Positions 51,480-61,667 of a DNA stretch of 64,000 nucleotides are shown piece by piece (the stretch's first letter is position 1; each line of letters begins with the position of its first letter). The notes under the pieces are model-generated. The model made no database searches and had not been told where the DNA came from. It was given only the letters and a program-made list of their open reading frames with translations. Source of the DNA: a bacterium (lineage in GTDB: Bacteria; JAJVIF01); NCBI GenBank assembly GCA_022072165.1, contig JAJVIF010000001.1:1-64000 (forward strand), written 5' to 3'. A program made the position numbers and the translations under genes.

Positions 51480-52448
51480 ATGCTTTGCTTCCGCGCTGGC
51501 CTGAAAACTGAAGGATGTCGCCGACGCCGTGGCTTCACACTGGTGGAGGTCCTGGTGGTGCTCACCATCATCGGGATTCTCATCGCCACCACCGTACCGT
51601 CGTACATCCAGAGTCGGCCGGCCCGACTCCTGGGCCAGACCGCCAACAATATGGCGGCGAACCTCAACTACGCCCGGACCCAGGCGATCAAGGACAACGC
51701 CCCGACCTATGTCGAGTTCCTACCGGAAATCGACATGTACCGTATCTGGGACAGTTCGAACTGGGACCAGTACGCGGTCGATAACCGGGGGAATCTCTCC
51801 CTGGCTGCGGCTCCCTTGCGGGAAATCGCACCACAGCTCCGGTACCGCATCACCCCGCAGTCCATTGCCTTCCTGGAGCGGAACTACTCCAACGAGCGGG
51901 CGATTGCGAGCTACGCCTCTGTGCCAGACGATGTCGACATCCGGATGCAGCCCTACTCCTGTGTTGGGCAGCCCACGGAAACGGTCCGGCTCATGGCCCG
52001 GAACGGTTTTGTTAGCCGCGAGCCGCTGATGTTCATCAAGTACTTCCCCGATGGGCGCGCAGCGAATTCCTGGAGTGTCCCGTGTTCCGTGGTCTCCACA
52101 ACCGGGATCCCCCGCCTGGTGACGCCGAACCTCGAATACTCCCAGATCACGCTGCAGGTCCGGGGTGGCTTCAATGGCGAGACCGCCCTCGACTTCCTGC
52201 CGAACACCGACCGGATCGGGGCGGGTGACACCAATGTCGGCACCCCGTTCCCCCGACCGATCACTCCGAATCAGTCCCTCCCCTATGCAGCGGCGACTTC
52301 CGATTCCAACGGACGCCGGATCCTGCTGAATCACGGCAACGGCCGTGTCGCGGTGGAAGCGTATGCGCCGTATCTCATCGACCTCCCGGCAGGCGAAGAC
52401 CTGAATCCCGACTGGCGCACCGCCGTCAACAACAAGGAGTGGATCTAA
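51480..52448 (+). CDS. GspH/FimT-type pseudopilin, enlarged
   Basis: The 322-residue protein carries a basic leader ending RRRRG then FTLVEVLVVLTIIGILIATTVP (shown in parts): prepilin cleavage site with Glu+5. The following helix ANNMAANLNYARTQAIKDNAPTYVEF (in parts) is the GspH/FimT pattern (A-x-N-L-x-x-A-R-x-x-A-I), where minor pseudopilin H caps or primes the fibre. Normal GspH has about 170-200 residues; this is almost double, with an unfamiliar C-terminal half. The ATG at 51480 is supported by an AGGAG about 8 nt upstream. First of five pseudopilin genes; its stop lies 2 bp before the next start. Confidence 0.88.
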   Translation: MLCFRAGLKTEGCRRRRGFTLVEVLVVLTIIGILIATTVPSYIQSRPARLLGQTANNMAANLNYARTQAIKDNAPTYVEFLPEIDMYRIWDSSNWDQYAVDNRGNLSLAAAPLREIAPQLRYRITPQSIAFLERNYSNERAIASYASVPDDVDIRMQPYSCVGQPTETVRLMARNGFVSREPLMFIKYFPDGRAANSWSVPCSVVSTTGIPRLVTPNLEYSQITLQVRGGFNGETALDFLPNTDRIGAGDTNVGTPFPRPITPNQSLPYAAATSDSNGRRILLNHGNGRVAVEAYAPYLIDLPAGEDLNPDWRTAVNNKEWI

Positions 52449-52450
52449 TC

Positions 52451-59800: not shown

Positions 59801-61667
59801 CACGAATCTGCGGAACGATGGTACCGAGGGTGGCTTCTATCCGGACTACAACCAGGATGGCGACACCGTCGTCTTCAGCCACATCGACATGAACTTCTTT
59901 AACGCTCTCGACCCGTTCGCCGCGTTCGATCTGAGCACGGTGGATGTGGCGACTCAGGCGATTACCCGTCTGAACATCACGTATCCCGATGGGCAGAATC
60001 GCGCCGAACTGATGCCGGTCTTCAGCCCGCGCGGCGACCGGATCGCCTTCGCCGGCATTCTCTTCGACCTGGGTACTGGCACGTTCGCCTCTGACATCTG
60101 GGTCGCTGATGCGACTGGTGGTGTGGCGATTCGCGCTACGAACACGCTCAACGAGTTTGAGCTCTATCCGGTCTTCAGCGAAGGCCCGGCGTTGATTGCC
60201 CGCCAGAGCGACTCGGCCAACGGCAACACGCGGGGGCAGACCATTCCGTATCCCGTGGGTGGCATCAATCCGGTCAATACTGCCGCGAACCGAGTACTGC
60301 TGGCCGGGCTCCTGACAGAAGCCAGCGTGTGCCTGCGGGACCACGACACTTCCGGGCTGGGCATCGCCCAGAACTGGCGGTTCCGTGACCTTCCAGTGGT
60401 GCCGGAGCACATGGTGGCTCCACTCCAGGCGCTGGCGGATGAAGTGGCCTTCCGTAATCCACGATCAGAAACCGACAACACCGGCGGCGTGCCGCGCCTG
60501 CAGGCGTACGGCGGCAAGATCAATCTCAACACGGCCCCGCGGGTGGTACTCCGGGCGATCTTCCTGCAGATGTTCCAGGGGGCACAGCCCAATCTGGACA
60601 CCTCCGGACTCGGACGCCCCTCCAGCCCCAGCCCCCGGATTCGCGGCAGCCTGATCAACGATCGCTACCTCAACCTTGCAGAGCCCACCACCAGCATCCA
60701 GGACCGTTTCAACGCCATCAAAGTGGCGGATCAGTACGCCCTCCAGGTGGAGCAGTATCGCAAGTGGCTCTACAACAACATCTTCCTCGTCAGCGATGAC
60801 ACCGTCCCCAACGGCTTCATGGAGACCGACGACGAGCTGACCGGGCTGCACTACCGTGCGAACCCCAATCTGCCCTTCGACTCCGATGGCTCCATGCTGA
60901 CCTTTGAGCGCCCGATCTACGATCCTGCGCCGCCGTTCCGGAACTTGGGCGATCTCTTCAACGTGGCCCTTTACACCAACTACGAGAATGTCACGGGTGA
61001 CCAGTCGCCGGATGATGACATTCGGATGTACGAGGCCGTCCGGGGGACTCGGGGGCCGGACTGGAACGCGATGCCGGCCGCCGGCGGGGTCCGGAACGAG
61101 GGGACCGTTGCGACCTGGACCTGGGGGCCGATCTACCAGACCCGGATCCTGAGCCGGTATAACGGCGACAACTACCCCGGATCCAGTGGCAGTGAGGTGC
61201 TCGATCCGTACTTCACCCAGCCCATCCTGGTGCGGGATGCCGATGGCAACTACACGAGCGACTTCGCCCTCCAGCAGCGCTATCGGCTCTTCAGCGCCGA
61301 TGACTTCCGCTGGATTGCCCCCTGGCTGACCGTCCGGAGTTATGTCTACCGGGTGGAGAGTCGCGGGACGGTCCGGGTCGAGGCGAATCAGGGGGCCGGG
61401 AATCGCATGGACATCACCGCAGACAAGTTCTGGATCCTCAACATGGGGGATGAAGCGGTGCTCAACATGGCGGTCAATGGTGGCCTGTATGACATCGCGT
61501 ACCCCGTCGGCAGCCCGGTGGGCACCTTCTCGGAGGACTGGCTGAACAACACGCTGCGAAACCTCAACCGGTCAAAGCGGACTCAGCCCTTCTCGATCAT
61601 GGCCTACCAGGAGCAGCCTGAGAGTGGGGTACCCCTCACTCGCCCCGATTTCCTCCCGTCCTTCTAG
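56880..61667 (+). CDS. Giant GspK-like minor pseudopilin with inserted TolB/PD40 propeller
   Basis: The 1595-residue protein begins RRPRRG then SIIATVLLFIALILPVTLILL: a pseudopilin helix lacking Glu+5, which is the hallmark of GspK. YGGKINLNTAPRVVLRAIF (near residues 1212-1230) is the GspK INLNTAP motif. Normal GspK has 300-350 residues. Near residues 866-1115 four propeller-like blades occur (DWNPSNANEIAYAL, FYPDYNQDGDTVVFSH, LMPVFSPRGDRIAFAG, LYPVFSEGPALIA), as in TolB/PD40. A calcium-loop-like DLNGDGDLDDE lies at 58959-58991. GspK normally caps the pseudopilus tip, so this would present a propeller at the tip. AAGGAG is 7 nt before the ATG. Last gene of the operon, ended by a hairpin at 61698. 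Confidence 0.85.
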   Translation: MSALVRILHHGDRRPRRGSIIATVLLFIALILPVTLILLNTIQIETLLPANENLRLLALHEADKGFDAAINLLLQDNDEGTWVTINVPDPVNPGGTIELPVPAATNPAIEPPEVPVAVGNAFGFLPYAGWDLTDPLTVNQGYFQPFYAKGEHEIDSLVEPWARHPGNDNYYLAARSRENRVAPGNRDETGNQPGGDPDEYGLAERWVLTNVPIGMDDFSERTIRDSRERLDTGFEARGLLVPIGPSSPVPVDQPIDTGGSSFTGQPQGLPLWDGSNWAVSPADPFFGQGNNGVDYLPRPASYFRNNRGSDNSIEDTLTYDGRGDGIGAGDTNQYPDYPPLQQLVRASGWANTFFGGPVGPADRFNFEYKPAPGSITRYMTGNANANEALPGWYQSIVSDESGRFPLHRALNMIFQGGNYVYGDVDVPDGSGGNRVIFGTLEAPGFAPDKFDSLANATNLMFDRRHPNHYNYLIVRDMIASLFLGDSQMRRMDSGALNIQTEMENAQGKANWLIRQMLIKRAQLDRDYDGNGNGVDDTASYRYKDGTTISNTIYDGNGRMGDSQHPQREGTWPVYTNPVDVMRDYAGDGLYGTRTLDNGSAIGGTSQWFLRPSLDDFARLHQVVTVHTYETEYAADLEQSTDLFGLPGLSQRIEFGDINETDATNPFFSTFRVLTQQIGRRRAQALLRWRDGQVDLNGDGDLDDEYILLPTVDRALFNGDPTEPHSQITYRERNHPNFMDPAAANTQLYPAYLNIGNVGDMLLAPYNEPSEVLYSASLDASLSNSELVQLDATGITPPLPVPNTQGGVGGTGFINGDLDPIGGTSMLMFDGSGDAFTIQVPSGNGKTAVGGGLFEGTHPSYAPSDPFFIGQRLFVFQRTDTATPELWLADQNTGAPIAGPLPDNGLGLPSLVIDGGSPLDLVDLAGPDWNPSNANEIAYALGTGIDFQTLPPALTVQGDIYRFRVDLGLPGAARITNLRNDGTEGGFYPDYNQDGDTVVFSHIDMNFFNALDPFAAFDLSTVDVATQAITRLNITYPDGQNRAELMPVFSPRGDRIAFAGILFDLGTGTFASDIWVADATGGVAIRATNTLNEFELYPVFSEGPALIARQSDSANGNTRGQTIPYPVGGINPVNTAANRVLLAGLLTEASVCLRDHDTSGLGIAQNWRFRDLPVVPEHMVAPLQALADEVAFRNPRSETDNTGGVPRLQAYGGKINLNTAPRVVLRAIFLQMFQGAQPNLDTSGLGRPSSPSPRIRGSLINDRYLNLAEPTTSIQDRFNAIKVADQYALQVEQYRKWLYNNIFLVSDDTVPNGFMETDDELTGLHYRANPNLPFDSDGSMLTFERPIYDPAPPFRNLGDLFNVALYTNYENVTGDQSPDDDIRMYEAVRGTRGPDWNAMPAAGGVRNEGTVATWTWGPIYQTRILSRYNGDNYPGSSGSEVLDPYFTQPILVRDADGNYTSDFALQQRYRLFSADDFRWIAPWLTVRSYVYRVESRGTVRVEANQGAGNRMDITADKFWILNMGDEAVLNMAVNGGLYDIAYPVGSPVGTFSEDWLNNTLRNLNRSKRTQPFSIMAYQEQPESGVPLTRPDFLPSF

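Follow-up and report, generated by a model that had tools for sequence, protein, structure and literature searches.

What sort of filament would be built from pilins that, all five together, have far outgrown their counterparts in model systems? The question is raised by a 64,000-nucleotide stretch of bacterial DNA (positions 1 to 64,000 of contig JAJVIF010000001.1, assembly GCA_022072165.1; hereafter 'the window'), in which an earlier note had picked out five adjacent plus-strand genes at 51480–61667 that resemble those for the pseudopilins GspH, GspI, GspG, GspJ and GspK, here called H, I, G, J and K. Central to the answer is K, a GspK-like protein of 1595 residues with a TolB-like β-propeller inserted into its α-domain and with giant relatives, variously loaded, in other phyla. 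We consider it fairly probable that the five genes form an operon that supplies a retractile type IVa-pilus-like machine with its pilins and its tip, the tip adhesin being built into K itself.

Five intact and enlarged prepilin genes

All five reading frames are intact and lie on the plus strand in the order H–I–G–J–K, and the prepilin N-terminal motif PF07963 is found above the Pfam cut-off in H, I, G and J. The GspH/FimU-type minor prepilin H (51480–52448; 322 residues) matches N_methyl (1.6e-9) and GspH (1.7e-6), both above cut-off, and the NCBIfam model TIGR01708 (1.9e-12) below it. The GspI/PilV-type minor prepilin I (52439–53911; 490 residues from a GTG start) matches N_methyl (2.5e-5) and, along the stalk only, a PilV model (3.8e-5), and the GspG-type major prepilin G (53945–55087; 380 residues from a GTG start, or 351 from the ATG at 54032) matches TIGR01710 (5.5e-10, sub-cut-off). 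The GspJ/PilW-type minor prepilin J (55137–56834; 565 residues) matches N_methyl (2.1e-5) and, again on the stalk only, TIGR02599 (1.8e-6) and TIGR01711 (0.0038). Last comes K (56880–61667), a giant GspK/PilX-type tip prepilin that lacks Glu5. Past the helix, I is 34.5% identical to its orthologue in the same-class genome G003 across 452 residues (E 2e-44); past the stalk, J and its same-class orthologues are about 33–34% identical.

Set against Escherichia coli K-12 (G 145, H 169, I 125, J 195 and K 327 residues, from annotation coordinates), the enlargement is about 1.9-fold for H, 3.9-fold for I, 2.4–2.6-fold for G, 2.9-fold for J and 4.9-fold for K. The earlier note's description – five neighbouring prepilin-type genes, assigned in this order, each greatly enlarged – is borne out, and the lengths it gave are right within the choice of start codon for I and G. 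A frameshift or assembly error as the cause of the large K can be rejected, because the same-class genomes have counterparts of the operon, including full-length K homologues in G001 and G002 (1509 and 1605 residues, 34–42% overall identity). The GC content of K by codon position (0.635/0.452/0.799) is the pattern of a coding frame, Shine–Dalgarno-like GGAG sequences stand 5′ of H, J, K and the secretin gene that follows the operon, and no excess of intrinsic terminators was seen.

The K subunit and its inserted propeller

K begins with a prepilin-like hydrophobic stalk (RRG^SIIATVLLFIALILP) that has no Glu5 (G^SIIAT). Intact K matches nothing above cut-off in Pfam or NCBIfam, PF07963 included, the latter being expected of a protein without Glu5. 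Its identity was approached by profile–profile comparison, for which a canonical GspK profile, built from 16 proteins of 309–419 residues, was compared (hhalign) with the K family of the window's class, its insert removed. Four blocks are collinear – the stalk, SDESGRFPLHRALN, QAYGGKINLNTAPRVVLRAIF and IAPWLTVRSYVYRVESRGTVRV – and score 47, 34, 54 and 42, against at most 23.8 in 100 column shuffles.

On the DNA (plus strand), the GspK α-domain starts at the motif SDESGRFPLHRAL (58074–58110; canonical DE.GK.NLN; hhalign block 4), which is conserved in all giant K proteins. The second helix-hairpin-helix, QAYGGKINLNTAPRVVLRA (60504–60572; block 1), lies where T2SSK matches three orthologues sub-threshold, and the C-terminal motif IAPWLTVRSYVYRVESRGTVRV (61305–61390; block 3) corresponds to the last pilin-fold strands. 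Between blocks, a fifth canonical motif can be matched by eye: QALLRWRDG..DLN (58935–58990), invariant in the class alignment, corresponds to DWIDSDD (WIDSDD to WRDG..DLNGDGD). The α-domain motifs DE.G+.NLN and then +INLNTA are collinear in K and in all giant homologues. In the homologue from G163, the GspK equivalog model NF037980 matches residues 400–518 (5e-8) and T2SSK matches at residue 2681, which places the insert between two α-domain halves; T2SSK_1st and T2SSK, both sub-threshold, flank the insert at its two ends in G163 and G386. Taken together, these comparisons support K as a putative GspK/PilX-type tip subunit, in line with what the earlier note had proposed for a last subunit without Glu5. 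Single-sequence hhalign against E. coli GspK and GspJ had given the stalk only or nothing useful and was replaced by the 16-sequence profile; a phmmer search of the PDB with K alone found no match, and removing the insert from K did not raise T2SSK above cut-off.

Between the two hallmark motifs K has 813 residues, against about 100–170 in canonical GspK (read from the alignment), and within this interval lies a TolB-like β-propeller, at roughly residues 766–1110 (~345 residues; 59175–60210), placed between the two helix-hairpin-helix motifs of the GspK-type α-domain. A profile search of the PDB gave 2ojh (6e-6) and then TolB (0.02–0.04), and PD40 matches the K orthologue of G001 (1.3e-8). With a low-confidence AlphaFold model of the propeller (predicted local distance difference test, pLDDT, 48.5; predicted template-modelling score 0.60) as Foldseek query, TolB chains occupy each of the top 17 places (E about 5e-9 to 9e-8; template-modelling score by query 0.36–0.43). 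Of the large tip domains suggested earlier – for adhesion, degradation or cargo capture – the domain itself is thus found in K, the choice among these roles staying conjectural. The same propeller domain ends a putative surface lipoprotein elsewhere in the genome (C1:309413–310147; 35% identity over 231 residues, E 3e-24), which suggests a module that has moved between surface proteins.

That lipoprotein (L022 9434–12301, minus strand) is one of three paralogous putative lipoproteins, the others lying in the window at 6569–9442 and 43298–46033, both on the minus strand. The two in the window have 957 and 911 residues and the third, whose start is uncertain, up to 955; they have in common an N-terminal domain of about 450 residues, and it is the third that terminates in the propeller seen in K.

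Neither the insertion of a domain into a tip pilin nor the grafting of modules onto pilins is new. ComZ of Thermus thermophilus, a GspK-like tip pilin whose framework accommodates an inserted β domain of ~380 residues (PMC6561018), sets a precedent for K, but its domain is a β-solenoid inserted between the last two strands, and no enlargement of five subunits accompanies it. Since the ComZ insert is a large DNA-binding domain (PMC6561018), proposed as a DNA receptor, the K propeller might by analogy be the DNA receptor of a competence pilus; we regard this as improbable, K proteins being acidic overall (D+E about 0.12–0.14, K+R 0.05–0.07), unlike a typical DNA binder. The adhesin that we propose for K also resembles the modular pilins, such as PilB and PilC of Streptococcus sanguinis (PMC8179133), in which a non-pilin functional module likewise sits on a tip pilin. 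In those proteins, however, the module follows the pilin part as a fusion, and the largest example that the survey reported has 860 residues, whereas the K module lies inside the GspK α-domain of proteins of 1.3–3.8 thousand residues. As that survey required IPR012902 and K has no match to PF07963, its Pfam counterpart, Glu5-less K-type subunits would have been missed; by the survey's definition, K has the extra domain and lacks the IPR012902-type N-terminus.

Another parallel, the Verru_Chthon cassette (TIGR02596/02598/02599), is also a set of pilin-like genes, and J and H match its C and D members; these matches are confined to the stalk and far below cut-offs, however, and no NCBIfam model matches K. 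Literature searches for a GspK–propeller fusion and for this cassette found no direct precedent, and the literature searched does not describe subunits of such size, an insertion at this site or the conserved co-enlargement of all five partners across phyla.

Recurrence in other phyla

A K-stalk profile, searched in 385 genomes, found long frames in three lineages: the window's class (four of four genomes, the K gene of G003 being split by contig ends), that of G019, G306 and G163, and that of G228 and G086. Giant K is present in nine of the ten genomes of the G019 phylum, where most of the complete frames have 2.8–3.8 thousand residues and those of G388 and G391 run to contig ends; the third lineage has a K of 1.3 thousand. 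The neighbourhood survey that the earlier note had proposed turned up the same order with large subunits: G228 and G086 have peptidase–H–I–G–J–K–AMIN protein, and the G019 phylum has, on contigs that span the region, H–I–G–G–G–J–K–AMIN protein/secretin, with pilins of about 315–660 residues. A first scan of public contigs with K alone gave no match; repeated with the K alignment, it returned three metagenome-assembled genomes related to the class (isolate AUK107, a Lake Pavin sediment genome and CSMAG_1386, filed under Planctomycetota). The enlarged H–I–G–J–K set is therefore not the quirk of one genome and seems to represent a conserved type of pilus tip that awaits characterisation.

Every giant K examined has one DE.GR motif, near residues 276–399, and those with a C-terminal part have one +(I/V)N(I/V/L)NTA motif, 672–3047 residues from it; the insertion interval is thus single and common, and its cargo varies. 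The window's class has the propeller, members of groups f19, f155 and f260 have PKD-like domains, and f85 has no recognised domain. That the cargo differs is further indicated by the K propeller profile, which has no match in the K proteins of f19, f155 or f85. In another phylum, the giant K of G391 (L100, frame residues 1847–1991) has PD40 (4.7e-10, found by Pfam and matched weakly by our profile) plus PKD, which may reflect either a recurrent propeller cargo or shared ancestry.

Might the enlargement be mere neutral growth of loops, common to the pilins of these lineages and serving no dedicated function at the tip? The genome's other large pilins, about a dozen with 380–455 residues, would fit such an account, as would the fact that every K loop, also beyond the propeller site, is longer than in GspK. 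It becomes quite unlikely in view of the inserts, which contain recognisable folded domains, of the middle segments of giant K, which align over 75–100% of their length at 28–45% identity between genera and families, and of the G domain past the helix, which is homologous across phyla (28% identity over 343 residues with G086, E 3e-22). Because of this last homology, the enlargement is taken to be inherited and not accidental.

A bolder reading, which we hold tentatively and at somewhat less than even confidence, sees here type IV filaments that make up a distinct subfamily, phylum-wide in extent. In these filaments a separate tip adhesin, PilY1, would be replaced by an exchangeable cargo slot in the Glu5-less K – holding a propeller in one lineage and kilo-residue PKD/Ig-like arrays or other cargo in others – and all partner pilins would have been co-enlarged to carry the cargo. 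What a type IV filament adheres to or transports is determined by its tip subunits, and K proteins of 1.3–3.8 thousand residues, conserved across phyla together with equally enlarged partners H, I, G and J, would constitute a class that has largely escaped notice. Such proteins would also permit a direct test of whether the function of PilY1 can be built into a pilin itself.

The neighbouring genes and the type of machine

The earlier note had placed a peptidase just upstream and a secretin just downstream, and Pfam confirms both. The prepilin peptidase (49925–51022, plus strand; A24_N_bact 1.9e-28, Peptidase_A24 4.1e-13) likewise lies 5′ of H in G003, G228 and G086, and the PilQ-type protein (62147–64000, plus strand; 1012 residues, extending beyond the window end) combines AMIN (2.7e-9) with Secretin (4.2e-33) and scores with PilQ in NCBIfam. 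On the other side, ~8 kb from the operon, is a PilT-like ATPase (41978–43105, minus strand; 375 residues; T2SSE 2.8e-39), a close counterpart of which, with a matching N-terminus, lies 5′ of the operon in G003 (L017 990–2114). The secretin gene is followed by PilM (PilM_2 1.9e-29), two genes placed like those of PilN/O and PilP, and an O-antigen-ligase-like gene. With PilM, an AMIN-secretin and PilT as linked genes, the predicted machine is type IVa-pilus-like and not a type II secretion system, which favours the former in the choice between the two that the earlier note had left.

A piston like that of type II secretion, in which bulky secreted enzymes would be recognised by the large K and J and driven through the secretin by the fibre, nonetheless deserves consideration: H, G and the K of G163 score best with Gsp models (sub-cut-off), and GspK contacts substrates in type II secretion (PMC7541494). 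The five subunit types of GspG–K are the same, and the GspK motifs are common to K. The sizes differ, however, as do the order (GHIJK in E. coli) and the α-domain, K having its insert between the two helix-hairpin-helix motifs; moreover, GspC, GspL and GspM found no match among the genes adjoining the operon, where PilM and a secretin scoring with PilQ stand instead, with a PilT-type ATPase close by. We therefore judge a secretion piston unlikely, though less so than a DNA-uptake pilus or neutral growth.

The type IVa pilus offers the better template. Its PilHIJK set (FimU–PilV–PilW–PilX) with PilY1 (PMC7541494, PMC10191384) resembles the operon in having four minor pilins besides a major-type pilin, a Glu5-less tip subunit, PilM and AMIN-PilQ as neighbours and a β-propeller expected at the tip. 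It differs in that all subunits of the operon are some two to five times larger and the propeller, of TolB type, lies inside K and not in a separate PilY1. PilY1 (PF05567) indeed has no match in the four genomes of the class or in G019, against 26 of 192 other genomes in the same search; this, together with the propeller inside K, suggests that the tip adhesin is built into K. In the machine that we envisage, H, I, J and K would make up the initiating and capping tip complex. As K lacks Glu5, like the PilX that caps the fibre in known systems (PMC7541494, PMC10191384), it would start and cap the fibre at its extreme tip, with H, I and J stacked beneath and G, the major-type pilin, extending the fibre through the AMIN-secretin. 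The propeller would be displayed outward at the fibre end, probably binding a surface, polymer or protein ligand and so taking the role that PilY1, a separate β-propeller protein, has elsewhere, and PilT would retract the pilus.

Several points weigh against this built-in adhesin. Pfam T2SSK and T2SSK_1st stay below their curated cut-offs in K and in all homologues, for which reason K is described as GspK-like and not filed as GspK. Helix-hairpin-helix proteins of other kinds, such as those matched by PF03934 in the genome survey, have the NLNTA motif too, and because that motif alone is not specific, the argument for K is built on the collinear set. AlphaFold modelling of K residues 400–1595 from four sequences reached a mean pLDDT of 29.7, and the model was discarded. 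Propellers are common domains and carry no pointer to a ligand here, and a diverged PilY1 could evade the PF05567 profile. The PilN/O- and PilP-placed genes (319 and 301 residues) match no Pfam family and are assigned by layout only. Neither an ATPase nor a platform protein is encoded in the operon itself; genes of pilB and pilC type are found at other places in the genome, which has four secretins, and their link to H–I–G–J–K is putative.

Other features of the genome touch on pili more loosely. Possible regulators, to judge by their sequences, are encoded between pilT and the operon (window 46101–49897, minus strand): a PAS histidine kinase and two response-regulator-like proteins. A second type IV pilus locus (C1:1558000–1580000; L030) has a secretin, PilN/O/P-like genes and about ten tandem small pilins (160–235 residues), next to which are pilin-like proteins of 216, 623 and 910 residues, the last without Glu5 and possibly part of a second enlarged tip set. 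The dozen or so further large pilins are of G type and scattered genome-wide, some of them in tandem (e.g. window 963–2225; C2:258746–260204, L094), and with 35 N_methyl matches in all, the pilin repertoire of this genome is unusually rich.

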